This document shows, piece by piece, positions 1 through 59,760 of a stretch of 64,000 nt of DNA. The notes under the pieces were generated by a model. That model was not told the origin of the DNA, did not search any database, and saw nothing but the letters and a program-made list of their open reading frames with translations. The stretch is from Pseudoxanthomonas suwonensis 11-1. Its GTDB lineage: Bacteria > Pseudomonadota > Gammaproteobacteria > Xanthomonadales > Xanthomonadaceae. The stretch lies in NCBI RefSeq assembly GCF_000185965.1, contig NC_014924.1, forward strand, positions 3,286,001 through 3,350,000, written 5' to 3'. Position numbers and translations under genes: made by a program. Within the stretch, counting starts at the first letter, position 1. Each line of letters begins with the position of its first letter.

Positions 1-1
1 C

Positions 2-793
2 ATGGCAGTTGATATCGCCACCGACAGTGGCAACCACGACTTCCCCGTAGTGCAGGTCGGCGGCTTCCCGACGGCTTCGGTTTCCCGCCGCAAGCTTGCG
101 CAATGCATGGTGCGGGACTGCATGGCTGCACGCGAAGACAGGGAGAACTGGATCCCGAAGGCTGTGTTTTCCTCCAATGGCCAAGGCATCGCCCTCGCCG
201 GACAGGATCCGGCGTTTGCAGATGCCATGGCTGCGGCCGATATCATCCATGCAGATGGCATGCCGGTGGTCTTTGCAAGCCGCAGGACCGCGCACCCGCT
301 GCCCGAGCGCATCTGCACCACTGATTTTTTTCATGATGCGGCCCAGGCTGCGAGCGAACACAAGCTGCGCTTCTTCATCCTCGGCGCGAAGGAGGAGCAG
401 AACCGGGCCGTAGTCGAGGCCATCCGAAAGCTTTATCCGGACGTCGAGATTGTTGGCCGGCACCATGGATACTTCCCACCGGAGGACGACAAGCGTGTGT
501 GTGACCTCGTCCGCGCGAGTGGAGCGGACGTGCTCTGGGTCGCTCTGGGCAAGCCGCGGCAGGAGTTCTGGTCGATCCGTAATCGCGAGAACCTCAAAGG
601 CGTGGGCTGGATCAAGACCTGCGGCGGCCTCTATTCGTTCCTCACCGGGGACGCTCCGCGAGCACCGGGCTGGATGCAGGCCTTGGGGCTGGAATGGCTC
701 CATCGCGTGGCACTGGATCCCAAGCGGCTCGGCTGGCGATACCTGACCACTAATCCGTATGCGTTCTATCGACTAGTTCGATACACGCGATAA
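2..793 (+). CDS. WecG/TagA/CpsF (GT26) glycosyltransferase
   Basis: Likely transfers a sugar from a nucleotide-sugar donor to a lipid-linked intermediate during exopolysaccharide or O-antigen assembly at the cytoplasmic membrane. The 263 residues show the family hallmarks in order: ADGMPVV then LPERICTTDFF near residues 79-107, GKPRQEFW near 183, CGGLYSFLTG near 206, and RAPGWMQALGLEWLHR followed by a basic YL..NPYAFYRL tail. Length fits the family (about 240-265). The ATG lies at the window edge, so an upstream start cannot be excluded. It heads a same-strand run with a Wzy/ligase-like protein, a flippase and a UDP-glucuronate decarboxylase. In Xanthomonas the equivalent family member is GumM; substrate here is unknown, so no symbol is given. 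Confidence 0.9.
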   Translation: MAVDIATDSGNHDFPVVQVGGFPTASVSRRKLAQCMVRDCMAAREDRENWIPKAVFSSNGQGIALAGQDPAFADAMAAADIIHADGMPVVFASRRTAHPLPERICTTDFFHDAAQAASEHKLRFFILGAKEEQNRAVVEAIRKLYPDVEIVGRHHGYFPPEDDKRVCDLVRASGADVLWVALGKPRQEFWSIRNRENLKGVGWIKTCGGLYSFLTGDAPRAPGWMQALGLEWLHRVALDPKRLGWRYLTTNPYAFYRLVRYTR

Positions 794-833
794 AGACCCG
801 GCGCGACCCGAGCAGCACGCAAGGAATCACCTG

Positions 834-2342
834 ATGAGCGCAGCACCACATGCTATCCAGACTCGCGGGGACCTAATGCCCGTAGGCGAGGCTGCTGCGT
901 ACTTCGTGCTTTCGGTACTGCTGATCTTCGCATTCGCAGGCTCCTTGGCTATTGGGTTCTTCCCGATCTCCGCCGCCGTCCTAGCCTGTGCGGCTATCTT
1001 CTTTTTCTTCTCCAGAAAGTTCTGTCTCATCCTTGTCATAACTGCAACACTTTTCCAGAACCTGATCGTTGCCACAACGGCATACGCCATCTCGGACCTG
1101 GAGGTTTTCAGGGCATCGCAGGCAATCAATTTCGTCATCTTCGCGGCACTGGGGACCCTTGCCGGCTGGATACTGTTCTGGGCAAAGGTGCCGCTTCTGA
1201 AGCGTGACCGCGGAACCCTTCTCCTCTGCATAGGCTTCATCTGCCTGCTAGTGGCCTACGCTGGATACGGAACATTCCGCTCTACTCCGGGTAGCGTGGC
1301 CGCATACTTCCGCCAGTTCTCGACCGTAATTTTCGCTCTGGTCTGCGGGATTCATGTGGGTCGCGATCTTGATCGCCGGTTTGTCCGGGCGGCGATCTCT
1401 CTCTTCGCGTTCTTGGTGATCGTCTTCGGCGCCATTGAAATCGCCAGTCCGGACCAGTTCTATTCGATGTTTGGCGTCGAGGACTTCTACAAGCTGAAGC
1501 TCCCTACTGAGATTGCGATGCATCAGGCCGATCTCATTGCGGAGTCGTTCACGCAGACTTGGCTGAATTTTAGCGGCCAGTACGCATTAGACATCGAATC
1601 CCGCAAGCTGCTCGGGCCCACCCTGCACAACATCAGCTTCGCGTACGCCGCTGCGATCTTCGCCCTGGCCAGCCTCTACTACGGACGTGTCATTCTCGCC
1701 CTGTTGTTGATCGCCCTTCTTGTCTTCATCGGCGCGAAGGGGCCCCTGATCATCACCGTCTTCTCCGTGTCCACCTATCTCCTTGCGAGAACCCGAAGCT
1801 TGAAGCCCAGGCTGATCGAGGCTGGCGTCATCGGCGTTGCACTTGCGTACAGCACGTTTGTCATCCTGTACGGGATCTCATCGCTTGATATCCACGTCAT
1901 CGGCCTCTTGGCGGGCCTCAACGGCCTGATCGACAACCCGCTCGGACATGGCTTGGGCGTTGGTGGAAACCTAAGCGACATGGCAAGGGAGGCCCGCAAC
2001 ATCGTCGAGTACCGCAACGAAGGCGTGCCGTTCGCCATTGAAAGCGCGATGGGCGTGCTGATGTACCAAGTCGGCGTGTTCTTTGTCCTCCTAATCATCA
2101 TCTTCTTCAGGGTGATCGGGAGCTTGAGGCGGGCGATTCCCGCCAACCCTATCAATACGGTCTTCCTGACTTCGGCGTACTTCCTGCTTTGCAACTCGTT
2201 CTTCCAGGAGGAAGCCCTCTCTCCTGCTGCAGGCGGACTTTTCTTCCTCCTCTATGGAATTGTTATCTCGCAGCTCCCTCCGGAGGGAGCCATGACCGCC
2301 ATATCCCAATCGGATCGCAAGCTCCGGGCAGCTATCTCCTGA
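834..2342 (+). CDS. O-antigen polymerase/ligase-like (Wzy/WaaL) membrane protein
   Basis: A 502-residue polytopic membrane protein with about ten to twelve hydrophobic segments and a large soluble loop around residues 205-265, the layout of Wzy polymerases and O-antigen ligases. The segment RKLLGPTLHNISFAYA (about 258) followed by GAKGPLI (about 300) resembles the conserved arginine/histidine loop region of the Wzy_C family. These proteins polymerise or transfer lipid-linked repeat units on the periplasmic face. The ATG follows AAGGA with suitable spacing. It sits 40 nt after the GT26 gene and 4 nt before the flippase gene, so it is probably co-transcribed. Whether it is polymerase or ligase cannot be told from sequence alone. 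Confidence 0.75.
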   Translation: MSAAPHAIQTRGDLMPVGEAAAYFVLSVLLIFAFAGSLAIGFFPISAAVLACAAIFFFFSRKFCLILVITATLFQNLIVATTAYAISDLEVFRASQAINFVIFAALGTLAGWILFWAKVPLLKRDRGTLLLCIGFICLLVAYAGYGTFRSTPGSVAAYFRQFSTVIFALVCGIHVGRDLDRRFVRAAISLFAFLVIVFGAIEIASPDQFYSMFGVEDFYKLKLPTEIAMHQADLIAESFTQTWLNFSGQYALDIESRKLLGPTLHNISFAYAAAIFALASLYYGRVILALLLIALLVFIGAKGPLIITVFSVSTYLLARTRSLKPRLIEAGVIGVALAYSTFVILYGISSLDIHVIGLLAGLNGLIDNPLGHGLGVGGNLSDMAREARNIVEYRNEGVPFAIESAMGVLMYQVGVFFVLLIIIFFRVIGSLRRAIPANPINTVFLTSAYFLLCNSFFQEEALSPAAGGLFFLLYGIVISQLPPEGAMTAISQSDRKLRAAIS

Positions 2343-2346
2343 CAAG

Positions 2347-4896
2347 ATGAACTTCATTTATCGTTCTCTCCAGTTCGGTTTCATGCACATATGGCCGGCA
2401 CTGGTCCTGATTTTCTGCGCCACTTTCCTGCCCGCCGGACAGCTTGGCGCGGTCGCCATCTTCCTTTCGGTAGCCACGCTTTTCCGACCGCTGGTCGGCC
2501 TGTCGCTCGGCAGGACGGCGATTCGCAACGCAGGAGCCGCGTTCGCCGAGGGTGGGGACGCAAGGGCCCAGCAGGTAATCGCGCTCGCTACACGACTCGG
2601 TTTCGCCATGTCGGCGCTGGGCCTTGTTTTCGTCGTCGTGGCGGTACCGGTCGCCAACCGGATCTATGGGTTGGAAATCTCGGCGAGAGCAGTCGCCTTC
2701 GGTGCGTTGTTCATTTACGCATTCGGCCTCACCGAGTTCCTCGACGGGATCATGCGAGCCCAAGGCCACTTCCGCGCACTAGCGTCCGCAGTGATTGCCA
2801 GCAGGCTATTTGGAATCCTGCTCTTTGCTGTCGTCTTGCCTTTCGTACCGCAGGTCGAGGCACTTTTCGCATGCCTTGCCTTGGCGGAAGTTTCCTGTGT
2901 CGTCCTGCTGGCGCGCCACTTCCTCCCCTCTTTCCGGCGACACGCGGCACCCTCCCTTTTATCCCGCGACAGCGCCTCACTGCTGAAGAACTGCCTGCCC
3001 GTCATCATCAATGCGCTGTCCGTCTACCTCTATGCACGGGCGATGGTGATGGTGGCCGGTTTGCATGATTCGGGCGCCGCTCTGGGCGGATTTGAGATGG
3101 CAGTTCAGCTGACCAACCTGCCAATGGCCTTGACGATCGTCTGCGCGACCGTCATGTCGCCAGCCATCGCCCGGCTGCATGCGCGCGGTACTGTCAGGAG
3201 CCTGGAAACCGCTAGTGCAGCCGCTTCGCAGGCAGCTGCGTTCTCGGTGTGGGCAAACATGCTGGCCGCGGGCTTCCTCATGGTTGTCGGCCCCATGGCA
3301 ATCCTTTGGTTTTTCCCGGCCATCCCCGGGGCAGCCGTGGTGCTGGCCATCATTGCGCCGCTGGTCGCGCTCAAGGCCTACGCGCAGATCCTTTCGGGTG
3401 AGCTTGCCATCGCAACCGGAACCGCCAGCATCGCGGCACGAATCACGATCGTCTACGCCGTCCTGACGGTAGCCCTCGGTTACGCGCTTTCCGCGGTCGA
3501 TGGCGTCAGGGGCGCGGCCATTGCCATGCTGATCGTCCATACACTCGCCGTGTGGACGACCGTGCGCGTTCTCGGCAGGGAAACGGGACTAAAGATCCGG
3601 TATCGCGGCAAGAGCAGCCTTGCGTCGGCGCTGGTCGCTACCGTGCCGACCGCTCTGCTTGTACTCGCCTTGAGGGATCACCCAGCGGCCGCGACGCTTG
3701 CAGGCGCAGCGACGTTCCTGCTGCTTGTCGCGGCGACCCAGTATCTGTCGGTCCGCCTTGGCTGGGGCCTGCATGAACCTCTCGTCGACGGGTGGCGCAT
3801 GCTGCGGAACAAGAACGTCAGTGCCGAGGATGAGGCCTACGCACTTTTTGATGATGAGTCCCGTCCCGAACCAGACGCAAAGGACTATCGGAACGCGCTT
3901 GTCCGGTTGATCGGACTCAAATCCCCGGACGGCCTTGCCTTCTGGACGGGAGGCAACGGCGCCGCGGACGTGGTTCCACCACAGGATCACGCGGATATCG
4001 TCTATTCGCTCTACCTGATCGGTGAAGGTGAACGCATAGATCCGGGCGCTGCGAAGCGATTCGCGAAGCACCTAGCTGGGCTACCGTTGTACGGAAAGAC
4101 GCGAAAGGGGCTGAACGCCCATGTGAGCGCATACCTGCTCGCCACGATCCGCATCCTTGTCGAGCTTGGTAAGCTTAACTCCGAGGATGACATCGAGGAG
4201 ATCTACCAGGATTGGCAGCAGGACCTTCTGTTCGACTCGCTGCTGCTCCCACGCTGGCCGCGCATGTGGTCCCACCATATCTGGCGGGTCAGCCACTGGA
4301 TCGGCGGCTCCTCTTCGATCCTACTGCACCTTGCCGCTTCGGGCAGGGTCGCGTGGGCCACGAAGGAGCTGCTCCAGCAGGTACTGGATGCCGCCGAGCG
4401 CCACATACTCGATCACCACACTGGACTGCTGAGGACGTATCGCTCGAAGCTGCTTCATCGCGGCTTCCGGAAGCTCTACCAGGCGCTACATGACCCCGAT
4501 ATCGCCGATCTCGGCGGCATCGTGCACCTGCTTTGGGTCTACCACGCCATCGACCGGCGCTATGTTGGGTCGGCCGCTCTTTCTGCCGCCGCATCCCGGG
4601 AGCTTCGACGCGAGCCGTTCATGGAGTCGGTGCCGTATTGCCTGGATTTCGACATCATCCAGCTCAAACGCACCGCGGAATCCCAGTTCGACAAGGACAC
4701 TATCGCGCGCGCGGACAGGTTCATAGATGACACTCTCGCGTTCTTCCGCGCACCCCTCAGCTCCACCTACACCCTGCACAAGCTGCCGGGGGCACTGGCG
4801 TCGCTGCATGAGTGCGCATTCATCACTGGCCAGGAAAAGGTCAGGGGACTGGAAGTTGAACGCACGGACATCATCCGAGTGGCGTACTGGCTTTAG
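2347..4896 (+). CDS. Polysaccharide flippase (Wzx-like) fused to a C-terminal alpha-helical domain
   Basis: Residues 1 to about 475 form a typical 12-14-segment MOP/Wzx oligosaccharide flippase (RPLVGLSLGRTAIRNAGAAF near the N-terminus, repeated long hydrophobic helices), which moves lipid-linked repeat units across the inner membrane. Residues about 485-849 are soluble and helix-rich, with evenly spaced amphipathic helices and aromatic/His-rich turns (HADIVYSLYLIGEGE, HVSAYLLATIRILVELG, MWSHHIWRVSHWIGG, DLGGIVHLLWVYHAID). The pattern suggests an alpha/alpha-toroid as in some glycan-active enzymes, but no catalytic motif is certain. Ordinary flippases are about 400-500 residues, so the 849-residue length is unusual. 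The gene starts 4 nt after the upstream stop, consistent with translational coupling. Confidence 0.8.
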   Translation: MNFIYRSLQFGFMHIWPALVLIFCATFLPAGQLGAVAIFLSVATLFRPLVGLSLGRTAIRNAGAAFAEGGDARAQQVIALATRLGFAMSALGLVFVVVAVPVANRIYGLEISARAVAFGALFIYAFGLTEFLDGIMRAQGHFRALASAVIASRLFGILLFAVVLPFVPQVEALFACLALAEVSCVVLLARHFLPSFRRHAAPSLLSRDSASLLKNCLPVIINALSVYLYARAMVMVAGLHDSGAALGGFEMAVQLTNLPMALTIVCATVMSPAIARLHARGTVRSLETASAAASQAAAFSVWANMLAAGFLMVVGPMAILWFFPAIPGAAVVLAIIAPLVALKAYAQILSGELAIATGTASIAARITIVYAVLTVALGYALSAVDGVRGAAIAMLIVHTLAVWTTVRVLGRETGLKIRYRGKSSLASALVATVPTALLVLALRDHPAAATLAGAATFLLLVAATQYLSVRLGWGLHEPLVDGWRMLRNKNVSAEDEAYALFDDESRPEPDAKDYRNALVRLIGLKSPDGLAFWTGGNGAADVVPPQDHADIVYSLYLIGEGERIDPGAAKRFAKHLAGLPLYGKTRKGLNAHVSAYLLATIRILVELGKLNSEDDIEEIYQDWQQDLLFDSLLLPRWPRMWSHHIWRVSHWIGGSSSILLHLAASGRVAWATKELLQQVLDAAERHILDHHTGLLRTYRSKLLHRGFRKLYQALHDPDIADLGGIVHLLWVYHAIDRRYVGSAALSAAASRELRREPFMESVPYCLDFDIIQLKRTAESQFDKDTIARADRFIDDTLAFFRAPLSSTYTLHKLPGALASLHECAFITGQEKVRGLEVERTDIIRVAYWL

Positions 4897-4961
4897 TACC
4901 GGTCGACGATCACCCGCGCAACGAATACCGCATTGATGAATCAAACCTGGAGTAGATGAAA

Positions 4962-5903
4962 ATGAGTGAACGCACCCTTGTTACTGGCGGCGCTGGCTTC
5001 CTCGGATCGCATCTGTGTGATCGCCTCATCGAGGCTGGCCATGACGTGCTCTGCGTTGACAACTATTACACCGGCAGCAAGCAGAACGTGCTTCAGCTCA
5101 TCGACAACCCTCGGTTCGAACTGATGCGCCATGACGTCACGTTCCCGCTGTACGTGGAGGTCGACCGCATCTACAACCTGGCCTGCCCGGCGTCTCCGGT
5201 GCACTACCAGGCCGACCCGGTCCAGACGACCAAGACCAGCGTGCACGGCGCCATCAACATGCTGGGCTTGGCCAAGCGCACCGGCGCCCGCATCCTGCAA
5301 GCAAGTACCAGCGAGGTCTACGGCGATCCGGAGATTCACCCGCAGGTGGAGACATACTGGGGCCGCGTGAACCCGGTCGGCATCCGCAGCTGCTACGACG
5401 AAGGCAAGCGCTGCGCCGAGACCCTGTTCTTCGACTACTGGCGCCAGCACCAGCTCGAGATCAAGGTCATGCGAATCTTCAACACCTATGGCCCGCGCAT
5501 GCACCCCAACGACGGCCGTGTGGTCAGCAACTTCATCGTGCAGGCACTGCGCGGCGAGCCGATCACCATCTATGGTGACGGCACCCAGACCCGCAGCTTC
5601 TGCTACGTCGACGACCTCGTGGAAGGCATGATCCGCCTGATGAACAGCCCGGTCGAGCTTACCGGCCCGGTCAACATCGGCAATCCGGGCGAGTACACCA
5701 TGCTCGAGCTGGCGGAAGCGGTGCTGAAGCTGGTGGGTGGCAAGTCGAAGCTGGTCTTCGAACCGCTGCCGTCCGACGATCCGAAGCAGCGCCAGCCCGA
5801 TATCAGCGTGGCCAAGGAACACCTCGGCTGGGAGCCGAAGGTTGCCCTGGAAGATGGCCTGCGGGAAACGATCGCGTACTTCCGCAGCAAGCTTCAGGCC
5901 TGA
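4962..5903 (+). CDS. UDP-glucuronate decarboxylase (UDP-xylose synthase), NAD-dependent SDR
   Basis: Converts UDP-glucuronate to UDP-xylose (or the 4-keto intermediate), supplying a precursor for the polysaccharide cluster; cytoplasmic. Counting from the upstream ATG at 4956, the Rossmann motif GGAGFLG is at residues 11-17, the [12 protein letters not shown] signature that separates UXS enzymes from other epimerases at 74-85, the catalytic Y147-xxx-K151 pair in CYDEGK, and the downstream [10 protein letters not shown]. About 313-315 residues, the usual size for bacterial UXS. Two in-frame ATGs exist (4956 and 4962); GGAG at 4949-4952 is better spaced for the second. Last gene of the cluster and followed by a strong terminator. 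Confidence 0.9.
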
Positions 5904-5962
5904 TCAACAGGCTGCATGGTCTTGCTTCGGAATCGTACTCCCGGTGCGGGGACAGCGTGCAA

Positions 5963-5999
5963 GGCCGGGCTCCACCTGGGCGGAGCCCGGCCTTTTGTT
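5963..5999 (+). terminator. Rho-independent terminator of polysaccharide cluster
   Basis: An 11-bp perfect GC stem, GGCCGGGCTCC (5963-5973) with GGAGCCCGGCC (5982-5992), 8-nt loop, followed by TTTTGTTT. It lies 60 nt after the UDP-glucuronate decarboxylase stop and ends just before the convergent small gene. Confidence 0.9.
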
Positions 6000-6098
6000 T
6001 CAACGCGTACCCCGAAGCGCACCACCGGAATGGCAGATGCCCATTGCCACCGTACCCAGGCAGGCGCCGCACAGCGCACCGACGACGAACATCAGCAT
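6000..6098 (-). CDS. Small single-pass membrane protein (32 aa)
   Basis: A 32-residue peptide beginning MLMFVVGALCGACLGTVAMG, one hydrophobic segment with small-residue (G/A/C) packing and a short polar tail with H, R and T. The start is supported by AGGGGGAG 5 nt upstream of the ATG; a longer in-frame extension exists but lacks a comparable ribosome-binding site. The layout resembles tiny one-helix proteins of the DUF3789 type, though that assignment is only an impression. Function unknown; the gene is isolated and convergent with the polysaccharide cluster. Confidence 0.55.
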   Translation of the reverse strand: MLMFVVGALCGACLGTVAMGICHSGGALRGTR

Positions 6099-6476
6099 GG
6101 TGACTCCCCCTGACGACGCGGATCCCCTCCGCGTGGCTATCCTCGCATGGGCATCAAGCAGAAAAGTTTGACAATCATCACATAGCGCTCGCTTTAGCCC
6201 CTGAGCCATGCCACAAGTTGGAAGACGGATGGAAGATCAGCTCGGGCCCTCCAAGCACCTACGCCCAGCATCTAAGGCTTGATTGCGCTGGTCCGTGGTC
6301 ACCCGACCGCCATGTCATTACCTACCTGGACCCTCACGCAAGGCTATGCATCCAGCCGGTAAGCAATGGCCTCCCCAAAAGTAGACCACGCGCTACCACA
6401 GGGACAAGCTGTCCCTTTTCTCTCGGAGTTACGGCATGATTTCGCCACTTCGGGTAGACAACTAGAGCACCGCCAT
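6099..6476. other. Gene-free stretch upstream of the acyltransferase
   Basis: About 380 nt with visibly lower GC than the core genes. No convincing coding frame, tRNA or strong hairpin is seen. It should contain the promoter of the small membrane protein on the minus strand and of the acyltransferase on the plus strand. Confidence 0.5.
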
Positions 6477-7535
6477 ATGAGTAGCCCTCCTCCAAGAACT
6501 GATATACCGTCTTTGACCGGTCTTCGCGGCGTCGCTGCGCTAATGGTCGTTCTTTATCACGCGAACGAATCTTTCATTCGAGCTTCCGGATACGCTTCTC
6601 CTCATATTTTCCACGGCCGTTTGTTCGTGGATCTTTTCTACGTACTTTCGGGGTTCGTGCTTTGCCACGTGTATGTAACTGATACGCGGAGTATAAGCTG
6701 GCGGAAGTTTTTCGCCGCTAGAGTGGCCCGGGTATACCCTCTTCACGTGCTGACGGCGCTGCTCGGCGCGGCGGGTCTATACGCACTATCGAAAATGTCG
6801 GGCCAAGGACTTCCCCCGGAGCTTACGATTGGTCAGGCAATCCGTGAGCTGACGTTAACTCAGGCGATGCCTTTCATATGGAAGGACCTCATATGGAATT
6901 CGCCCTCTTGGTCTATCAGTGTTGAGTTCTATACCTACGTCCTGATCTTCCCGATTATTTATATCTGGCTTCATCGGGTCAGGCCGAGTACGTCCGTACT
7001 GATTTCCGGCACATTGATGGCGGCCCTAATTCCGTTCCTATTCTTTGCCGACATCCATCCGGCACGGGGCGCCGGGGCTTTTCTCCGGGCGTCAATCGGC
7101 TTCCTGGCCGGTTGGAGTACCTGGCTTGTGTGGAAAAGTCCTGCCAAGCGCCTACGTCCAAGCACGGTCCTCGCCGTGATGGTGGCGCTGTTTGCCGGCA
7201 CCCAGTTCTACCCGACGAGCCTCGACGATCCGTGGTACGTGCTGCCGCTGATGCCAGTGCTCGTATATGGCATTGCAGGCATGACATCCCCGTTAGATCG
7301 GATTCTTTCCGGACGGGTTTTGAGCTACCTCGGACTCGTCAGCTATTCCGTCTACTTAATACACCCACTGATCCTTAAGGCGACCCAGGTTGTTTTTTCC
7401 AGGATGGGCTTGTTCCAATACGGAATGGGGCTTTTCATAGCCGTTTCACTGGCCCTGATAATCCCTTGCTCTTACGTTTCATGGCGGTTCTTTGAGCTTC
7501 CATCGCGAGACTGGCTGAAGCGCCGCCTGGACTGA
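6477..7535 (+). CDS. Acyltransferase 3 family (OafA-type) membrane O-acyltransferase
   Basis: Integral membrane acyltransferase that typically O-acetylates or succinylates surface polysaccharides. From the ATG at 6477 (352 residues) the protein opens with the diagnostic SLTGLRGVAALMVVLYHAN, in which the arginine and the LYH histidine are the conserved functional residues, followed by about ten hydrophobic segments, NSPSWSISVEFYTY near residue 143 and SYSVYLIHPLIL near 291. An upstream in-frame ATG at 6366 would add 37 non-conserved polar residues and is rejected. The ribosome-binding site is weak. Lower GC and less biased third-codon positions than the neighbours suggest acquisition by transfer. 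Proximity to the polysaccharide cluster suggests, without proving, that it decorates that polymer. Confidence 0.88.
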   Translation: MSSPPPRTDIPSLTGLRGVAALMVVLYHANESFIRASGYASPHIFHGRLFVDLFYVLSGFVLCHVYVTDTRSISWRKFFAARVARVYPLHVLTALLGAAGLYALSKMSGQGLPPELTIGQAIRELTLTQAMPFIWKDLIWNSPSWSISVEFYTYVLIFPIIYIWLHRVRPSTSVLISGTLMAALIPFLFFADIHPARGAGAFLRASIGFLAGWSTWLVWKSPAKRLRPSTVLAVMVALFAGTQFYPTSLDDPWYVLPLMPVLVYGIAGMTSPLDRILSGRVLSYLGLVSYSVYLIHPLILKATQVVFSRMGLFQYGMGLFIAVSLALIIPCSYVSWRFFELPSRDWLKRRLD

Positions 7536-7589
7536 TCACCAAGGTTTCCGCTCGCAGGGCCTTTGATTCGAGCCCCTCAGGTTGCCTCT

Positions 7590-8255
7590 TCAGGGGCGCA
7601 TGCGTGGCTCACATTCAACGCTGAAATGGCCCTGCGGTTGGCGCCAGACCCCCCGGTTCGTGACACAACTCTTGCCCGACAGTGCTGTGGCTGCATCGAC
7701 AAACCATTCTTCGGTGGTCGCGCGGTAGATGCTTCCACGCAGATGCGTCTGCGACGCGAGCAGGCCGAACAGTACGACTGCCGGGACGAACAAGGGGGGC
7801 ACAGATTCGTTACGCAGGCGATGCAAGGCAAGTAGCGCGACTGCACCGCCGAGTAATAATCCGGCAATGATTTCCGAGACCGAATGGGCTCGCAGGGCGT
7901 AGCGCGAATAAGCGATGAGCGTTGCGAAAACGATCCCGAATAGCCCTGCCGCCGTGCGCCATGCTCGATGGGAACTATGCAAGGACAATACGCCGACGAC
8001 TGGCCACACGGCCAACGATATAACCGTGTGGCCGCTGAAGCAGGTCAGGTCCCAGGCGCGGATGCCGGTGCCCCAGCCGTAGAAGGCGATCTTGCTGGCG
8101 GCGGTCGCCAGGCAGGCGACGGCGATCGCGGTCCACCAGACCAGGACGGGGCGCCTGCCGGATGGGGATCGCAGCATTACGGCGATGCCGGCCAATGCGG
8201 CCAGGGGGATCAGATAGAGGGCGCTGCCGGGGGCGACGAACCACTGCCAGTTCAT
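7590..8255 (-). CDS. PAP2-family membrane phosphatase
   Basis: A 221-residue membrane protein with about five helices and a recognisable PAP2 core: SGHTVISLAVWP (residues 74-85, motif 2) and SRYALRAHSVSEIIAG (117-132, motif 3 with the catalytic His124). The first motif is degenerate (K55...R66 without the usual RP), and the acidic residue after the motif-3 histidine is Glu128 rather than Asp. Members remove phosphate from lipid phosphates such as undecaprenyl diphosphate or phosphatidic acid. Convergent with the acyltransferase gene (54 nt gap). Substrate unknown; the altered first motif lowers certainty about activity. Confidence 0.75.
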   Translation of the reverse strand: MNWQWFVAPGSALYLIPLAALAGIAVMLRSPSGRRPVLVWWTAIAVACLATAASKIAFYGWGTGIRAWDLTCFSGHTVISLAVWPVVGVLSLHSSHRAWRTAAGLFGIVFATLIAYSRYALRAHSVSEIIAGLLLGGAVALLALHRLRNESVPPLFVPAVVLFGLLASQTHLRGSIYRATTEEWFVDAATALSGKSCVTNRGVWRQPQGHFSVECEPRMRP

Positions 8256-8535: not shown

Positions 8536-8612
8536 GCGCCCGTAGCTCAGCCGGATAGAGTAGTGGCTTCCGAAGCCATTGGTCGGGGGTTCGAATCCCT
8601 CCGGGCGCGCCA
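8536..8612 (+). tRNA. tRNA-Arg (anticodon CCG)
   Basis: Cloverleaf read directly: acceptor GCGCCCG pairs with CGGGCGC (8602-8608), discriminator G, encoded CCA at 8610-8612; D arm GCTC...GAGT; anticodon stem GTGGC/GCCAT around loop TTCCGAA, giving anticodon CCG; T loop TTCGAAT. tRNA 3' ends are common integration sites, which is relevant to the three-gene HEPN/AAA+/WYL set that begins 57 nt downstream. Confidence 0.97.
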
Positions 8613-8668
8613 GAATCCTTCCCCGCCGGGCATTCGTGTCCGCGGGCGAGCACCGATCTCCGGGCCTG

Positions 8669-9631
8669 TCAGGTCTCCAGCTTCTTCCTGCGCACCGACC
8701 AGACCTGGTCGCCGAAGCCGTTGAGCCAGCTCTGCAGCATCTGCGAGTCCACGACCGTGGCCGTGATGCGGTAGCCGTCGTCCAGCTCCTTCACCTCCTG
8801 GTCGGTCGACAGCGGCGTTTCCAGCAGGTGGGCGCCTGCGCCCTTCGAGATGCTGAAGCCCAGGCGCACCCTGGTGCCGTCGCCGAAGCCGAAGCGGCCT
8901 TCGTCGTCGTAGCGCTTGAGGTCGAAGTCCTTCGGGCGCTCGAAGGTTAGGGTCGTCGCCTCGGCGGCAAGCAGCCGGTGCACGGCGATTGTCCGGTTGT
9001 CGTCATAGCCCTGGAACCGGCAGACCAGATACAGGCGGGCGCCCTGCTGGGCCAGGCCCAGGGGCATGACTTCGGCCTTGACCCGGTGGCCGGCGGCGTT
9101 GCGGTAGTCGATCCGCAGCCACCGGTTGGCGTACAGCGCCTCGCAGGCCACCTCGAACACGCCCGGCGCCACCTTCGGTGGCAGCAGGGGCTGCGAGGTG
9201 GCGACCACCCTTACCTTGTGCGGCCACTCCCGTTCCAGGTTCCTGGGTCCCGCCGCTTCGAGGTTGCGGCGCGCCTGGGCGAAGAAACCGTCGAGCGATC
9301 GCATCATGCGCACCGGCAGCAGGTTGCGCAGGTGCTCCTCGGCCAGGCGCAGCAGCAGCGATTCCTGCGGGGTCAGGCTGGACAGGGACAGCGCGCGGCC
9401 GGCGTCGGGCCAGCGGTAGCCATAGGGCCGGCTGCGCTGGTCGCGCTCGAGGTGGAACTCCTCGGCAAGCATTTCCAGCTGGCGCTGGATGGTGCGCAGG
9501 TCGCGCTCGATGCCGGCGTCCCGCAGCTGCTGGTGCAGCTCGGGCGCGGTGACCTTGCGGCCGCGCGGGATCCGCCTGAGCAGTTCGAGTGCCAGGCGCA
9601 CGGTCTCACGACTGTCTGATCGCTTCCCCAT
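8669..9631 (-). CDS. WYL-domain transcriptional regulator with N-terminal HTH
   Basis: A 320-residue protein with an N-terminal winged-helix (MGKRSDSRETVRLALELLRR and RDLRTIQRQLEMLAEEFHL, residues about 1-65) and a WYL domain around residues 150-235 (LRIDYRNAAGHR, EVMPLGLAQQGARLYLVCRF), plus a C-terminal extension typical of WYL regulators. WYL domains sense nucleic-acid or nucleotide ligands, and such regulators (BrxR/CapW type) often control phage-defence loci. The ATG at 9631 is chosen because it begins exactly at the HTH and no good upstream start is in frame. It is the promoter-distal gene of a same-strand set with a double-AAA+ ATPase (65 nt upstream) and a HEPN-like protein. Its regulatory target is inferred, not shown. 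Confidence 0.9.
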   Translation of the reverse strand: MGKRSDSRETVRLALELLRRIPRGRKVTAPELHQQLRDAGIERDLRTIQRQLEMLAEEFHLERDQRSRPYGYRWPDAGRALSLSSLTPQESLLLRLAEEHLRNLLPVRMMRSLDGFFAQARRNLEAAGPRNLEREWPHKVRVVATSQPLLPPKVAPGVFEVACEALYANRWLRIDYRNAAGHRVKAEVMPLGLAQQGARLYLVCRFQGYDDNRTIAVHRLLAAEATTLTFERPKDFDLKRYDDEGRFGFGDGTRVRLGFSISKGAGAHLLETPLSTDQEVKELDDGYRITATVVDSQMLQSWLNGFGDQVWSVRRKKLET

Positions 9632-9696
9632 GATCCCGCCCCCCGCGGGTCCTTGCCCATGTCTGCCTGCCGCCGACGGCGAACCCGGGCGGTATA

Positions 9697-11817
9697 TCAC
9701 GCCCGTCCGGGCGCGACGAAGCCCATCGGCCGCGGCCCGCTGGCCTTGAGCCTGGACTCGGCCTGCAGCAGGGACACGAACCCCCTCGCGCTGCCGACAG
9801 GACGGAAGCGGTGCTGGCGGGCGATGGCGGCGTAGTCGCCGGGCGTCAGGTTGCCCAGCTGCCGAACGAGGGCAATGTCCGCGGGGGAAGGTTCGCCAAG
9901 TTCCAGCGCGGCCAGGTGTCGGTGCAGCAGTTCCACGGCTTGGGTGGCAGTGAGGTAGTCCATCCGCACCTTGAGGTCGAACCGGCGGAGCGCGGCAGGG
10001 TCCAGCCCGGCGACCAGGTTGGTGGAGGCAATGAAGATGCCGGAGAACGTCTCCATCTGGGTCAGCATCTCGTTGACCCCGGTCACCTCCCACGAATGCC
10101 GCGCCTCGCGGCGGTCGCGCAGGAAGCTGTCGACCTCGTCGATCATCAGCACCGCCCGGTCGTGGCGTGCCTCGCGGAAGGCGGCGGCCAGGTTCTGCTC
10201 GGTCATGCCGAGGTAGGGCGAAAGCAGGTCCGACGCGCGGCGCACGTGCAGCGGCAGCTCCAGCCGGCGGGCCAGCCAGTGCGCGAACGCGGTCTTGCCG
10301 GTGCCCGGCGGGCCGTACATGCACATCCGGCCCTGGCCGGAACGCGCGAGGCCTTCCGCCAGTGCGGAGATGCTCGTGTCCGGGTTGAGGAAGGCCAGGT
10401 CGTAGGTTCCCGGCAGCTCGGCTGCGTCATGGGTATCCAGCCGGGCATGGCCCTGCGCCTGCAACGTGCCGTCCACCAGCCGCTGCAATGCCGCCTCGGC
10501 TCCGGACGCACCCAGGCGTGGAGCCACTGCACGCACCACCGAGGACGCGCGCGCCACCACCGCCGGTGCGAGGTGCGGTACCGCCGCCAGCCGTTCGATG
10601 CAGCGGCGGTCGACCAGGTCGCCACACACCGCTTCGATGATGCGGGTGCGCTGGCTGCGCGGCGGGACGTGCATCTCGATGATCATGTCGAACCGGCGCA
10701 GGAAGGCCGGATCGACCATGCCGATCGCGTTGGACAGCCAGAAGGTCGGCGCAGCGCTTTCCTCCAGCATGCGGTTCATCCAGGCCTTGCGTTCCTGGGC
10801 CACGCTGCGGGGGCCGAACAGGCCTCCACCGTCGAACACGTCCTCGACCTCGTCGAACAGCACCACCGACCGCTGCTGCGAAAGCAGGGTCTGGGCCGCG
10901 CGGAAGGCGCGCAGGCGGGTCCTGCCGTCGACGGGGTCGCCATCGCTGTCCTCGCTGGAGACTTCGTACAGCGGGCACCCCAGCCGGCCGGCAAGCATCC
11001 GCACCAGCTGGGTCTTGCCGGTACCGGGCGGACCATGCAGGAAGATGTTGGCGCCACGGCGGCGGGTCGCCAGTACGTGCTCCAGGTACGGCTCGAGGAT
11101 GGCCAGCGACTCGCGCAGGTGCGGGTAGTCCGCCGGCCCGAGCTCCGCCGCCGGCGCCACTGCCACGGCGCTGCGCAGCAGGTCCATGGGTTGCACCGGC
11201 GTGGACGACAGCAGGTCGGCGAACTCGCTGGACAACAGCTCCAGGCGGGAGCTGACCGAGCCGGTGCCATGGCGTCCGGTGACCAGCAGGCCCGAGCGCC
11301 CGAGCAGCCCCTTGCCGTCGAGCGCCTCCGCCACCTCGCGGACCGGCAAGTCCAGGATCCGCGCCAGGGCCTCGTGCAGTCGCCCGGTCGTCAGTTCGCC
11401 GAGCAGGTCGGCCGCGTTGTCCAGCAGCGGCTGGGTGTGCAGCAGCACGGCGAAGGACAGGATCCGGCATTCCACCGGCGAAAGCCCCAGCGCCCTCTGC
11501 AGCTGCGCCAGGTTGCGGGCCATCACCGCAGGAAGCCGCATGCGGCTGGCCCTGGCTTCGGCCTGCCCATGCATCGTCCGCAACGCGGCGCGTGCGGTGT
11601 CCGGGTCGAATGCCCCGGGGTCCTCGACCATCTCGCCGAACCCGAGCGCACAGGCCAGGTCGTCGTGGACGAAGTCGCCGCCACGGATGAACTTCCGGTG
11701 CCCGCGCATGGGCACCAGGATGCGCAGCATCCAGAGCTTCACCAGGGGTCGCAGGGCCGACTCGGCTTGCGACGCGCAGGATGCGGGGCGCCGGAGAAAC
11801 GAGGGTACGCGGGTCAT
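9697..11817 (-). CDS. Protein with two AAA+ ATPase modules
   Basis: A 706-residue protein. A helical N-terminal region (1 to about 230) is followed by two complete AAA+ modules: Walker A GPPGTGKT at 262-269 with Walker B VVLFDEVEDVF at 318-328, and Walker A GPPGTGKT at 502-509 with Walker B LMIDEVDSF at 557-565. Each has an LRRFD arginine-finger-like motif (373-377 and 610-614). Both modules look intact, so a ring-forming remodelling ATPase resembling CDC48/ClpB or the AAA proteins of defence loci is expected; it is not a standard Clp, FtsH or MoxR protein. The start has an excellent site, AAAGGAGG, but this is enclosed in a hairpin. Central gene of the HEPN-AAA-WYL set. Substrate unknown. 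Confidence 0.88.
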   Translation of the reverse strand: MTRVPSFLRRPASCASQAESALRPLVKLWMLRILVPMRGHRKFIRGGDFVHDDLACALGFGEMVEDPGAFDPDTARAALRTMHGQAEARASRMRLPAVMARNLAQLQRALGLSPVECRILSFAVLLHTQPLLDNAADLLGELTTGRLHEALARILDLPVREVAEALDGKGLLGRSGLLVTGRHGTGSVSSRLELLSSEFADLLSSTPVQPMDLLRSAVAVAPAAELGPADYPHLRESLAILEPYLEHVLATRRRGANIFLHGPPGTGKTQLVRMLAGRLGCPLYEVSSEDSDGDPVDGRTRLRAFRAAQTLLSQQRSVVLFDEVEDVFDGGGLFGPRSVAQERKAWMNRMLEESAAPTFWLSNAIGMVDPAFLRRFDMIIEMHVPPRSQRTRIIEAVCGDLVDRRCIERLAAVPHLAPAVVARASSVVRAVAPRLGASGAEAALQRLVDGTLQAQGHARLDTHDAAELPGTYDLAFLNPDTSISALAEGLARSGQGRMCMYGPPGTGKTAFAHWLARRLELPLHVRRASDLLSPYLGMTEQNLAAAFREARHDRAVLMIDEVDSFLRDRREARHSWEVTGVNEMLTQMETFSGIFIASTNLVAGLDPAALRRFDLKVRMDYLTATQAVELLHRHLAALELGEPSPADIALVRQLGNLTPGDYAAIARQHRFRPVGSARGFVSLLQAESRLKASGPRPMGFVAPGRA

Positions 11818-11841
11818 GGGGCCTCCTTTTCCAAGGAGCCC
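11818..11841 (-). promoter_or_regulatory. Hairpin enclosing the ribosome-binding site of the AAA+ gene
   Basis: On the minus strand GGGCTCCTT is followed after a two-nt turn by AAAAGGAGGCCCC and the ATG. CTCCTT can pair with AAGGAG, and GGGC with GCCC with one bulge. The Shine-Dalgarno sequence would therefore be occluded unless the hairpin is opened, for example by ribosomes finishing the upstream HEPN gene. Regulation is inference. Confidence 0.4.
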
Positions 11842-11893
11842 GATTCTCCGGAGCCACGCGACATCATGTGTCGCATGGACTCCCGCCCGGGTG

Positions 11894-12544
11894 TCAGACC
11901 ACCGGGTAGAGGATTTCGCCGTACTCCTGCTCGGGGTTTGACATCATGATGTCCAGCACCAGCGGCACCACGGTGCCCAGGATCGCGACGCCATCGCGTA
12001 CCTGGCTGCGGTTGACCTGGCTGTTCCAGGTGGCACCGCCATGTACAAGCTGGTTGCGCAGCACATACAACCGGTCGAACACGATGGACAGCACGGTGGC
12101 CGTATCGCGGCCGGTCACTGCGGCCAGGGCGGCCTTCTGGCTGGCCGCGAAGGCCTGTTCCCACCTGCCACTGGAGTCATGGTCGCGCAGGGCCGCCCAG
12201 AAGGGCTCAAAGGCGAACCTGTTGCCGACCAGGGTGCGGATCGGGCCGCTGAACTGCTGGAACAGCGCCTGGTGCAGGCGCCCCTCCCGGTCCAGGCCAA
12301 CGATGGTGGCGAGGAACGCCCGGGCCCGGTCGCGCTCCCGCTCCGCCTGGCCGAACTCGCGCGCGTAGCCGGCATTCAACGCCACCCACGACAGGATGAA
12401 GCGCAGGTCCGGATCGTCCCCGGCCTGCTCGGCGCGCTGCAGCCAGCTGAGCGCGCGGTGGATGCGCAGGCGCAAGGCCTCCGGCTGGTCTTCGCGTATG
12501 GCCCGGTGTCGCTCCTTCAAGGCCGCTGCCGTCAGAACCGTCAT
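11894..12544 (-). CDS. HEPN-like putative RNase/toxin-type protein
   Basis: A 216-residue, largely alpha-helical, cytoplasmic protein with no signal peptide. Its only clear motif is FDRLYVLRNQLVHGG, containing R163-N164-xxx-H168, the Rx4H catalytic signature of HEPN ribonuclease domains, here in the form RNxLVHG seen in Apea-type HEPN proteins. The rest is amphipathic helix, consistent with a divergent HEPN fold. AGGGGGAG just precedes the ATG. First gene of a minus-strand trio with the double-AAA+ ATPase (76 nt downstream) and WYL regulator, an arrangement suggesting a HEPN effector controlled by an ATPase sensor. The general family call is moderately secure; RNA cleavage is inferred from the motif. 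Confidence 0.65.
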   Translation of the reverse strand: MTVLTAAALKERHRAIREDQPEALRLRIHRALSWLQRAEQAGDDPDLRFILSWVALNAGYAREFGQAERERDRARAFLATIVGLDREGRLHQALFQQFSGPIRTLVGNRFAFEPFWAALRDHDSSGRWEQAFAASQKAALAAVTGRDTATVLSIVFDRLYVLRNQLVHGGATWNSQVNRSQVRDGVAILGTVVPLVLDIMMSNPEQEYGEILYPVV

Positions 12545-12700
12545 TTCTCCCCCTGTGGAACGCCGCTTGCCCCCTACCCGGGTTGGTGCATCGGCAGGTT
12601 CCGCAGCTTAGCCATCCGGGCCAGCGGCGGGAACGCCCTTCATCACCCGCCGACACGCGGCGGGACAGGCTGGTGGGCATTCCTGGTTGGAGATTCCCCC

Positions 12701-13036
12701 ATGCGTATCGCGATCCTTGCCGTTCCTGCCGCCCTGCTGATTGCGGGGTGTGCCTCCTCGCCGCTGGCCCAGCGGGTGGAGCCGATCGACGGGGTGGTGT
12801 CGGGCCAGTGCCATGCCGACATGGTGCGGGGGGCCGTCGGACTGGCGGCTTCGGGCACCACGATCGAGCGGGCGCGGATAGACAGCGACAGCAGCGAAGT
12901 GCTGGTGGTGCGCGGCCAGGGCGACCGGATGGGCAGCGCGACCCTGCCGGAGCCGGGTACCGGCGGGGCGGGCGGTTCGCGGCTGGTGATCGAAACCGGC
13001 AACAACAACGCGATTACGGCGGTGCGGTGTGGGTAA
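12701..13036 (+). CDS. Small lipoprotein, divergent I78 peptidase-inhibitor-like
   Basis: A 111-residue secreted protein with a lipoprotein signal peptide (MRIAILAVPAALLIAGC, lipobox IAGC). The mature part, GQCHADMVRGAVGLAASG... ending in RLVIETGNNNAITAVRCG, parallels the I78 inhibitor fold: an early Cys, a VxGxVGL segment, a basic-residue-plus-hydrophobic strand and a terminal RCG. The central RTLRPG-type loop is poorly conserved, so inhibitory function is uncertain. It diverges from the HEPN gene and faces topoisomerase IB; a clearer I78 paralogue lies on the other side of that gene at 14378. Likely periplasmic, anchored in a membrane. Confidence 0.65.
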   Translation: MRIAILAVPAALLIAGCASSPLAQRVEPIDGVVSGQCHADMVRGAVGLAASGTTIERARIDSDSSEVLVVRGQGDRMGSATLPEPGTGGAGGSRLVIETGNNNAITAVRCG

Positions 13037-55592: not shown

Positions 55593-57470
55593 ATGGCTGT
55601 GCTAATTCCAAGCCGCGGAACCTGCGCAGGGCGGATGACGCCCGGCGAACGGCGCTTCTCACAGCGCATCGAGGACAAGCTCGAAGACGATTACGTGTGC
55701 TGGTACGACGTACCCGTCGGACCCAGCTACCGGCATCCCGACTTCGTCGTCCTGCATCCCAACCGAGGAATCCTGATCCTTGAGGTCAAGGACTGGAAGC
55801 CGGAGACGCTGGCCGAAATAGACCGGGACCGCGCGGTGCTGAACACCGAGCGTGGACGTGTGGTCGAAGCCAACCCGCTGCGACAGGCTCGGGATTACGC
55901 GATGGAGATCCATCGCCTTCTCCAGACCGACCCCGCCCTCCTGCAGCCAGCGGGCCACCGTCGCGAGGGCAAGCTGGTCATGCCGTGGGGCTTCGGGGTG
56001 GTCCTCACCAATATCTCCCGCAGCCAGTTCGAGCAGATGGAACTGGAAAACTGCCTCTCTCCGGCCAGCGTTATCTGCCGGGACGAGATGACCGAAAGCG
56101 CCGATGCGGAAGGGTTCCAGAAGCGGCTGTGGGACATGTTCATGATGCCTTTCCCCTGCCAGCTGACCGTGCCCCAGATCGATCGCGTGCGCTGGCACCT
56201 TTTCCCGCAGCTTCGCATCCAGCAGCAGGGTGAGCTTCTGCCCACCCTTACGCCAGCGATCCAGACCGCGCCGATGGAAATTCCAGACATCATCCGCGTC
56301 ATGGACTTGCAGCAGGAGCAGCTCGCACGCTCGCTGGGTGACGGCCACAGGGTGATCCATGGGGTCGCGGGATCCGGAAAGACCATGATCCTCGGTTACC
56401 GCTGCGTGGAGCTCGCGCGAAGGATGCACAAGCCCGTGCTCGTGCTCTGTTTCAACAAGACGCTTGCCAGCCGGCTCGAGCAGCTCATGGTGCAACATGA
56501 CGTACACGACCGCGTCGCCGTGCGTCACTTCCATGGATGGTGCAAGGAACAGCTGCAGACGTACGGCGTAAGGACGCCACCCTCCCAGCCCAGTGCAGAC
56601 AGGTACGCGGCCGCGCTGGTGGATGCCGTTGTCGCAGGCCTGGAATCCAACGCAGTACCGCGCGCCCAGTATGGAGCCGTGCTGATCGACGAAGGCCACG
56701 ACTTCGCGCCGGAGTGGTTGCAGCTCGTCTCGCAGATGGTCGATCCGGAGACCAATTCGCTGCTGTTGCTGTATGACGATGCCCAGACCCTCTATGGAGC
56801 TGGAGCGCGTCGCAAGTTCAGCTTTGCAAGTGTCGGCATCCAGGCAAGGGGGCGTACCACGATCCTCCGCCTTAACTACCGCAACACGCTTGAAGTGCTT
56901 TCGGTGGCCAAGGCTTTCGCGGAGGAAGTATTGGCACCCCAGGAAACGGATGACGACCATGTTCCGGTCATCCCACCGGAAAGCGCAGGCCGACGTGGCC
57001 CGATGCCGGAAATCTGGAAGGCCCGGAATATCTGGAGTGAAGCCGACCTGATCGCCCAGCGTATTGCTGATGCGTTGGCGAATGGCGCGAATCCAAATGA
57101 TTTCGCCGTACTCTGCCACTCAAGAAGTCTTGCCGACTTGGTCGGCAGGCAACTGGAGAAGCAAAATCTCCCGGTGCTGGTCGCAAGCGACCAGCGACGG
57201 CGCGAGCTGTTCAATGGCGATGCTTCGGTAAAGGTAATGACCATGCACTCCAGCAAGGGCCTGGAGTTCGACACTGTCTTCATCCCTGGCATTTGCGAGC
57301 TCGCTTCGCGCGACGCGGATGTCGACCGGCGGCAACAGCAGGTCCGCCTGCTTTACGTAGCAATGACCCGTGCGCTCCGGCAGCTCGAGATTTCCCATCA
57401 CGGTGAGAGCCCGATGGTCGATCAGGTGCGTGGCGTCGTGGAGAATGTTTCCCGTCAGCTGGCAGCCTGA
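55593..57470 (+). CDS. NERD-domain UvrD/Rep-like superfamily 1 helicase
   Basis: A 625-residue protein. N-terminal NERD nuclease-related domain (about 14-110): PGERRFSQRIEDKLEDD, PDFVVLHPNRGILILEVKDWK (the Asp/Glu-x-Lys core). SF1A helicase follows: Walker A GVAGSGKT (about 257), LIDEGHDFAPEW (motif II, about 364), LRLNYRNT (motif IV-like), VKVMTMHSSKGLEFDTVFIPG (V) and RLLYVAMTRA (VI). Nuclease plus helicase fusions of this type are common in DNA-repair or defence contexts. The ATG at 55593 follows AGGGGAAG. Lower GC than neighbours. Activity of the NERD domain is inferred from motifs. Confidence 0.9.
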   Translation: MAVLIPSRGTCAGRMTPGERRFSQRIEDKLEDDYVCWYDVPVGPSYRHPDFVVLHPNRGILILEVKDWKPETLAEIDRDRAVLNTERGRVVEANPLRQARDYAMEIHRLLQTDPALLQPAGHRREGKLVMPWGFGVVLTNISRSQFEQMELENCLSPASVICRDEMTESADAEGFQKRLWDMFMMPFPCQLTVPQIDRVRWHLFPQLRIQQQGELLPTLTPAIQTAPMEIPDIIRVMDLQQEQLARSLGDGHRVIHGVAGSGKTMILGYRCVELARRMHKPVLVLCFNKTLASRLEQLMVQHDVHDRVAVRHFHGWCKEQLQTYGVRTPPSQPSADRYAAALVDAVVAGLESNAVPRAQYGAVLIDEGHDFAPEWLQLVSQMVDPETNSLLLLYDDAQTLYGAGARRKFSFASVGIQARGRTTILRLNYRNTLEVLSVAKAFAEEVLAPQETDDDHVPVIPPESAGRRGPMPEIWKARNIWSEADLIAQRIADALANGANPNDFAVLCHSRSLADLVGRQLEKQNLPVLVASDQRRRELFNGDASVKVMTMHSSKGLEFDTVFIPGICELASRDADVDRRQQQVRLLYVAMTRALRQLEISHHGESPMVDQVRGVVENVSRQLAA

Positions 57471-57593
57471 CTGGCTCCCCTACCCCTCTCCATCAACGCA
57501 GAAGCAGAAAGCCCGCGCACGCCGGCCTTCTCTTTGCCTTCTTCGAGGAGAGGACTCAGGGGACAAGGGGCGGGCGCCGAAGCGCCCGCATCG

Positions 57594-57827
57594 TCAACGC
57601 TTCAGGCTGGCGACGACCTCAGGGACGGTCAGGCCGATCTCCAGCTGCACGCGCACGTACTCGCGCTCCTTGCGCGACAGGGTGCGGCCAACCTCCAGGC
57701 GCACGTCCTCGGCCTGCAGGATGCGCATGATCCGCGGCAGCGCCGAGCCCACCACGTCGGGGCCATAACCGGCTTCGAGCAGCGCGGCGCGCATTACATC
57801 TTCAACGTCCATGACCATCCGGTTCAT
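57594..57827 (-). CDS. Small hypothetical protein (77 aa)
   Basis: A 77-residue cytoplasmic protein, MNRMVMDVEDVMRAALLEAG then helices ending LTVPEVVASLKR. Charged amphipathic helix pattern (RTLSRKEREYVRVQLEIG) suggests a folded helical protein. No ribosome-binding site is strong; the internal ATGs at residues 4 and 6 are alternative starts. No family is recognised. Confidence 0.55.
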   Translation of the reverse strand: MNRMVMDVEDVMRAALLEAGYGPDVVGSALPRIMRILQAEDVRLEVGRTLSRKEREYVRVQLEIGLTVPEVVASLKR

Positions 57828-57892
57828 GCGGGGGAGGCGGCCATTCTGCCTGATGCTGGGCCAGACCGTACTTGCAGCATTGGAGTGCTCGA

Positions 57893-59608: not shown

Positions 59609-59703
59609 TCAAGACTCCCTTGTCTTTAACCGGTGAGCCGAGGGCTCCAAGCTGACAGCACATTAGCCGGATCACTTTCACGATAAAAGGCAGGCGCAAT
59701 ACA

Positions 59704-59735
59704 GAGAAAGGGGCTGCCCAAGCAGCCCCTTCCCT
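59704..59735 (-). terminator. Terminator of the M13 peptidase gene
   Basis: AAGGGGCTGC (59708-59717) and GCAGCCCCTT (59722-59731) form a perfect 10-bp stem; on the minus strand it is followed by TCTCTGT. It lies just past the M13 gene stop. Confidence 0.8.
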
Positions 59736-59760
59736 TTCCGTCCGGTATCGCTGGCCTGGA

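Follow-up and report, generated by a model that had tools for sequence, protein, structure and literature searches.

A small cluster of genes beside a tRNA-Arg gene was analysed in the chromosome of Pseudoxanthomonas suwonensis 11-1 (NC_014924.1, positions 3,286,001 to 3,350,000; this whole stretch of 64,000 nucleotides is called here the window, and its positions are counted from its first letter). The minus strand of the window carries three genuine genes, all open and intact, which encode a HEPN-like protein, a protein with two AAA modules and a regulator with WYL and WCX domains (Table 1), and which are separated by gaps of 76 nt (HEPN-AAA) and 65 nt (AAA-WYL). An earlier, sequence-only reading of the same DNA had presented them as one operon starting at the tRNA and as a candidate for an undescribed defence system. 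The three same-strand genes proved to be real, and both the motif R163-N-x3-H168 of the HEPN-like protein and two intact AAA modules were confirmed. The tRNA is indeed adjacent, but the gene end that faces it at a distance of 56 nt is the 3′ end of WYL, the last of the three genes, so that the trio does not start there. A single operon is doubtful, because a conserved palindrome, the predicted operator of the WYL protein, occupies the gap between the HEPN and AAA genes. Scanning for sigma-70 promoter and terminator patterns found nothing. Gene maps were made with a purpose-made simple gene caller, which missed or misread some genes, including the WYL gene of the window.

The insert containing the trio is accessory, as is evident from an empty site in two congeners and from its patchy presence. 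While 4.09 kb separate tRNA-Arg from the lipoprotein-like gene in the window, this distance is only ~105-115 nt in congeners G172 and G215, whose GltB is 96% identical and which share with the window the outer neighbours (PAP2 on one side; TopIB, an I78-type inhibitor and GltB on the other). In a third congener, G203, the same slot is occupied by a HEPN gene that is 57% identical and interrupted by a stop, and neither AAA nor WYL was matched on the retrieved stretch. The tRNA and the lipoprotein-like gene are ~4.2 kb apart in G010, 1.7 kb in G113 and 5.0 kb in G188; in G010 and G188 the slot contains, as judged by eye, apparent sugar-use genes, and therefore its content varies and is not restricted to defence. 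As to integration repeats, the stretch from the tRNA to position 14000 gave no copy of 12 nt or longer of the 3′ part of the tRNA, and in G203 a 45-nt copy of its 5′ part lies ~130 nt before the tRNA. The guanine-cytosine (GC) content of the insert (~70%) is the same as in most of the window except ~1-8 kb and 56-60 kb, thus composition shows no sign of recent import.

Table 1. Features of the insert and its borders (window positions)
Feature	Position	Strand	Remarks
HEPN-like protein, predicted RNase effector	11894..12544	-	216 aa, R163-N-Q-L-V-H168
Conserved palindrome TGCGACA-N5-TGTCGCA, predicted WYL operator	11857..11875	.	one mismatch; ~40 nt upstream of AAA start
Double-module AAA protein	9697..11817	-	706 aa, two intact AAA modules
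WYL-WCX transcriptional regulator	8669..9631	-	320 aa from ATG at 9631
tRNA-Arg(CCG)	8536..8612	+	one edge of insert
Accessory insert	8613..12640	.	right edge approximate; ~4.0 kb
Lipoprotein-like gene, conserved	12703..13036	+	flanks insert, outside system

Apart from the palindrome of the window, the 3.42 Mb genome has no site with one mismatch or none. When up to three mismatches are tolerated, the window contains 5 sites versus 4.8 expected, which is no excess over chance; the operator signal rests in the close match and in its position. Twenty-nine genomes of the family with the WYL gene were compared with 32 WYL-negative ones (no WYL match at E≤1e-30), the latter being hand-picked from tables (15 congeners and 17 others) rather than random, and the former including the genome of the window and the few relatives in which the palindrome was first spotted. 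A site with at most one mismatch was registered within 1 kb of WYL or AAA in 18 of the 29 genomes, where the frequency observed in WYL-negative genomes would predict ~0.07. Five of the other 11 had no such site, three had it only on other contigs and three at a distance of 1.6-2.8 kb; a site with two mismatches lies ahead of WYL or AAA in G034, G121 and G177. Among the 36 sites (up to one mismatch) of the WYL-negative set, 35 are listed and none of these is exact, one site of G006 being unlisted. All 11 exact sites listed belong to WYL-positive genomes: nine are found within 1 kb of WYL or AAA, the other two (G293, G245) are on the same contig but farther off. A first control, composed of 26 loci with a WYL gene less similar or of another kind, was discarded: a site with no more than one mismatch was present in 12 of them, including 9 of the 13 loci of the close set, and therefore these loci are no control.

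Sites with 0-2 mismatches also occur near the AAA or WYL start on Rhodoferax, Diaphorobacter, Pantoea, Raoultella, Citrobacter, Vibrio and Sphaerotilus plasmids. A site with up to two mismatches was found within 400 nt of the start in 20 of 68 AAA open reading frames (ORFs), and 16 sites with up to one mismatch were found farther from AAA ORFs in 1.71 Mb; some of these perhaps control other local genes. Loci L001, L002, L003 and L029 were dropped from the counts of AAA-ORF sites and from the 62-locus linkage counts given below, and L001-L003 from the count of motifs in HEPN ORFs. The palindrome precedes the HEPN gene itself in G237 and L005, and a WYL-HEPN pair in L010, so that HEPN can belong to the regulon, although not obviously so in the window. 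Where WYL and HEPN genes are immediate neighbours, most loci (L025, L277-L279) lack a site closely resembling the palindrome, hence their WYL protein is of another specificity. Further copies with 0-2 mismatches stand near other local genes at L060 positions 4688, 7753 and 10873, at L192 positions 5605, 6848 and 12716, and at L138 positions 1584 and 2904, suggestive of a broader WYL regulon, through which defence genes without annotation could be named.

Wide conservation at a single core locus, which the sequence-only reading had named as speaking against itself, was not observed: HEPN was detected in 31 of the 297 family genomes (E≤1e-3) and in 3 of 17 genomes of the genus, AAA in 16 (E≤1e-50) and WYL in 29 (E≤1e-30) of the 297. 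In this set, with relatedness uncorrected, HEPN and AAA overlapped in 8 genomes versus 1.7 expected (Fisher one-sided 4e-5), WYL and AAA in 14 versus 1.6 (2e-14), and HEPN and WYL in 16 versus 3.0 (9e-11). All three were present together in 8 genomes, and the HEPN and AAA genes were at most 4 kb apart in 7 of the 8 genomes having both. Co-occurrence and clustering of the three genes in other genomes thus exceed chance. Among 398 sampled genomes of Pseudomonadota, HEPN was found in 10 (E≤1e-20) and AAA in 39 (E≤1e-60). HEPN matched nothing in the phage collection and gave 7 loci in IMG/VR. For 62 HEPN loci, WYL was found within 9 kb in 26, AAA in 16 and both in 14, as scored with hidden Markov models of WYL and AAA built partly from the same loci; WYL directly preceded HEPN on the same strand in 7. 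Models with this overlap were also applied to the 42 stretches around AAA relatives described below, to the 68 AAA ORFs and to the 65 HEPN ORFs. Some loci are near relatives (L066, L071 and L072; six loci of Rhodobacterales), so these counts overstate the number of independent events.

The AAA protein has Walker A GPPGTGKT twice and Walker B DE twice, and 7 aligned sequences show no substitution in the G-P-G-T-G-K core or in the D-E pair of either module. The structure model obtained with these 7 sequences was weak (mean predicted local distance difference test score, pLDDT, 72.0; predicted template modelling score 0.52). The modules of the protein have their best sequence matches in PDB with CDC48 and AFG2, from which the protein of the window differs in being bacterial, in its N-terminal region and in its linkage to a WYL gene. 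The second module matches IetA models (best 5e-42 in PADLOC). IetAS has an adjacent protease as a partner. Membership in this system was rejected on the basis of the NCBIfam IteA score (130.6 bits versus a cut-off of 510) and the lack of a protease among the three insert genes in Pfam; the protein of the window also differs from IetA in having two AAA modules.

For the regulator, one of only three WYL genes in this genome, Pfam confirmed the WYL domain (1.3e-9) and added WCX (2.8e-5), while the helix-turn-helix proposed before gave no Pfam match and is deduced from the N-terminal region only. A profile search against solved structures gave PafBC as the best match (1.3e-9), followed by WYL proteins at ~5e-7, by 8tp8 at 1.7e-6, labelled in the table as a DeoR-family transcriptional regulator and taken by us to be DriD, and by CapW at 0.33; no chain labelled BrxR was among the matches listed, nor was any WYL chain among those listed in a single-sequence search of PDB. 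Similarity to the PafBC/DriD type is low. With BrxR and CapW the protein shares the WYL and WCX domains in a defence context, and the palindromic operator at the regulated promoter, characteristic of such regulators, is represented by the predicted site upstream of AAA/WYL. Like BrxR operators, described in the text available to us as inverted repeats with a 5-nt spacer (PMC9122601, PMC9122589), this palindrome has a spacer of 5 nt. It differs in that the string TGTC is absent from the main texts of the three BrxR and CapW papers, to which this comparison was confined; operator letters may stand in the figures. CapW differs also in being matched by profile only at 0.33.

The first protein of the trio is very probably a HEPN protein, with weak profile support. 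The motif R163-N-x3-H168, which conforms to the R-x4-6-H of the HEPN superfamily with its polar residue after R, is invariant in all 22 aligned sequences (21 of 24 HEPN loci plus the window; L008, L022 and L024 left out). R-x4-H is readable in 59 of 65 HEPN ORFs; of the remaining six, three carry it in another frame of a broken gene, two end before the motif and one has K-x4-H. PF18735 (HEPN_RiboL-PSP) was weakly matched (E≤1) by 15 of 22 members of this protein family, at best with 1.2e-4. Profile-profile comparison with 11 of 15 PF18735 places, one of them below the curated cut-off, gave E 0.003 and a probability of only 10% (E 0.5 for an unrelated profile), and the alignment sets R163-N-x3-H168 exactly on the R-x4-H of the PF18735-type proteins. 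In the AlphaFold model (pLDDT 88.7), which is all helical, the motif forms the end of helix 148-168, followed by a loop and helix 179-202; this agrees with the position in a helix given for HEPN proteins in the text of PMC3710099, the comparison being confined to placement in the helix. The likeness to HEPN_RiboL-PSP, for which a distant relationship to AbiF and AbiD is stated in the part of PMC3710099 consulted, is thus in R-x4-H with N after R at a helix end; the difference is that the window protein is unmatched and that its relatives are more closely knit as a family, sharing an RNQ-x2-HGGATW block. Many plasmid relatives are annotated as 'HEPN domain-containing protein'. The protein of the window is probably an active RNase. 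The same genome has a second HEPN-type gene, G000:C1:1791053-1791634 (L167), with a PF18735 match of 2.9e-21.

In relatives the AAA-WYL pair was found with various partners. The same-strand order HEPN-AAA-WYL of the window is reproduced in G246, beside a gene of type IV restriction enzyme (mREase_IV, PADLOC 4e-256). AAA is directly followed by WYL in G128, G147, G246, G011 and on the Pantoea plasmid. A DUF2779 gene lies between AAA and WYL in G293, G112, G079 and on the Rhodoferax and Diaphorobacter plasmids, between WYL and HEPN in G237, and on the far side of AAA from WYL in G147. In the part of PMC3985635 consulted, DUF2779 appears among RNase H-like families presumed to be 3′-5′ exonucleases, with a DUF83 (PD-(D/E)XK-like) domain. 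LeoA and LeoBC were found near WYL, AAA and HEPN in G068, and in G182 they are flanked by HEPN and by a shorter relative of AAA, after which WYL follows. On a Sphaerotilus plasmid WYL-AAA-Sir2 adjoins BREX-2 PglZ and BrxD. On a Rhodoferax plasmid (L191) AAA-DUF2779-WYL is followed by PDC-M27A and M27B of the PADLOC candidate system PDC-M27, from which the insert of the window differs in holding only HEPN, AAA and WYL and none of the genes M27A, B and C. HEPN follows AAA, WYL and ADP-ribosylglycohydrolase genes in one row in L028, stands directly after a TmtA-like gene in L287, and in five loci of Rhodobacterales is preceded by an ExoI-like gene, both facing AAA and WYL. On plasmids and virus-like contigs HEPN was found near SbcCD-like genes, and WYL-HEPN beside a TM0106-type nuclease with a C-terminus matching MkoA, in one case with McrC.

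Several other genes were observed in these surroundings. In L194, a Methylomonas plasmid, AAA is followed by an RtcB-family gene (9383-10579), possibly an RNA-repair partner, with WYL and PD-(D/E)XK nuclease genes nearby. L071 encodes at 9015-9656 a protein of 214 aa that contains a DRTGSM motif, looks vWA-like on visual inspection and has no Pfam match; such a protein occurs near HEPN in seven loci (L066, L071, L072, L076, L080, L082 and L085, the L076 member being perhaps a false ORF) and is directly divergent from HEPN in L066, L071, L072 and L080. In the IMG/VR contigs L285 and L286 WYL-HEPN pairs adjoin apparent phage tail genes, and L286 also has a TM0106/MkoA-like gene. In the window itself, positions 1-8000, situated across the tRNA from the insert, have a lower GC content (55-64% in most kilobases) and contain genes for a WecG-type glycosyltransferase, a sugar epimerase and an acyltransferase, being probably a surface polysaccharide cluster. 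A second low-GC stretch covers 55660-60000, where the called ORFs 55659-57119 and 57594-57827 have no Pfam match at 0.001.

Altogether these data may be explained by a small accessory defence islet beside tRNA-Arg, composed of an AAA-WYL core and a HEPN effector, and we assign to this explanation as a whole a probability of about 0.5. The more general part of it, i.e. that a defence-type accessory cassette with WYL autoregulation is present here, appears quite probable. The defence candidacy proposed earlier was thus sustained as far as it relies on genes that are accessory and variable in location, on the defence-type genes next to their relatives, on the conserved operator, the intact AAA pair and the HEPN motif, and had to be given up with respect to a fixed trio. 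The WYL protein, probably as a dimer, would bind TGCGACA-N5-TGTCGCA ahead of AAA and control AAA and its own gene; it is the conservation of the site that is observed. Upon infection or DNA damage it may sense a nucleic-acid or nucleotide ligand, and expression of AAA-WYL would change either by relief or by activation. The AAA protein is likely a ring remodelling a protein or nucleoprotein target. It might then free or trigger the HEPN protein, which is the weakest step; RNA cleavage would in this case be AAA-gated. As a predicted metal-independent RNase, HEPN is the most likely effector here, which would cut RNA and stop growth or phage replication.

A number of observations weigh against this explanation. 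The HEPN protein of the window has no Pfam or NCBIfam family at E≤1 and accordingly fails the curated PF18735 cut-off; Foldseek gave its model no match at E≤0.001, and the VIA rows for this helical bundle had low Z, many being rhodopsins and designed bundles; this fold search was uninformative. Searches of solved structures found no HEPN structure for it, and in the relative L284 K replaces R163. In the window the 400 nt preceding HEPN gave no operator, the palindrome lying between HEPN and AAA and not ahead of HEPN. Neither AAA nor WYL was within 9 kb in 34 of the 62 HEPN loci, several or many of the HEPN-only loci being located, by eye, among housekeeping genes; HEPN, therefore, does not need AAA or WYL. 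For AAA relatives from the 398 Pseudomonadota genomes WYL was present on 9 of 42 retrieved stretches, many contigs being short, which makes the AAA-WYL pairing loose outside close kin. Of the 17 AAA places registered in the family, seven contain a stop codon in frame, which in some may be simply where the gene ends, and the plasmid locus L189 has no annotated defence gene. Finally, close relatives carry the DUF2779 nuclease gene, for which no match was found in the genome of the window (by a search without positive control), so that the window copy could be a remnant.

The 34 HEPN loci lacking both partners refute the fixed HEPN-AAA-WYL trio as a general rule, and AAA-WYL, in turn, occurs with other partners. 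Because of these loci and of the operator placed between HEPN and AAA, the arrangement resembles an AAA-WYL cassette under its own control, from which the HEPN gene can be separated. The same two facts may be taken further, to two independent units in one insert: a free-standing HEPN RNase, toxin-like or stress-related, and the autoregulated cassette. G203, which has in the same slot only the stop-bearing HEPN gene, speaks for such independence, as do G112, G079 and G011, where AAA-WYL is present with no HEPN match, and the plasmid AAA-WYL pairs with no annotated HEPN nearby. On the other hand, HEPN and AAA share 8 family genomes instead of the 1.7 expected, mostly in close proximity, and the operator stands ahead of HEPN in G237 and L005 and of the WYL-HEPN pair in L010. 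We consider two wholly independent units rather unlikely, and functional coupling of HEPN to this particular AAA-WYL pair a tentative assumption, somewhat short of even odds.

Still less likely is a module of DNA damage or stress response unrelated to immunity, in which a PafBC-like WYL protein would detect single-stranded DNA and switch on AAA, the customary partners being repair nucleases. The profile proximity of the regulator to PafBC and 8tp8 rather than CapW is in line with this, and SbcCD-like, ExoI-like, RecC- and UvrD-like genes were indeed found among the neighbours, though some of them may simply belong to the core genome around the insertion site; immunity is favoured by neighbours of restriction and defence type, by carriage on plasmids and virus-like contigs and by patchy distribution. 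The least probable is decay of a larger ancestor comprising AAA-DUF2779-WYL with PDC-M27-like or other genes to a regulator-ATPase stump with a HEPN neighbour, as might be supposed from the relatives with DUF2779 between AAA and WYL, since all three genes of the window are open and intact and AAA is directly followed by WYL also in the four genomes and the Pantoea plasmid named above (DUF2779 being on the other side of AAA in G147).

Returning to the defence islet with its AAA-WYL core, WYL regulators that govern defence genes (BrxR, CapW) are known already, as are effectors of the HEPN type and defence systems containing AAA proteins, while in open-licence papers no description was found of this cassette of AAA and WYL genes, of the operator, or of the present family of HEPN proteins as forming a system. 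It is conceivable, though we propose it only with reserve, that the double-AAA protein, the WYL regulator and the fixed operator make up a portable trigger-and-control cassette of immunity plugged into many effectors, such as HEPN RNase, DUF2779 nuclease, the PLD-helicase M27 genes, Leo dynamins, Sir2 and type IV restriction, and that throughout Pseudomonadota defence genes not yet described are marked, and can be predicted, by the operator. The usual route to defence genes is guilt-by-association, and a highly specific operator common to a WYL regulator and its partner AAA would provide an independent sequence handle on a defence regulon. Seen from xanthomonad chromosomes to enterobacterial plasmids, it could list unannotated genes carrying the site, and it makes testable both the signal sensed by such WYL regulators and the role of a CDC48-like AAA pair as a common trigger for different effectors.

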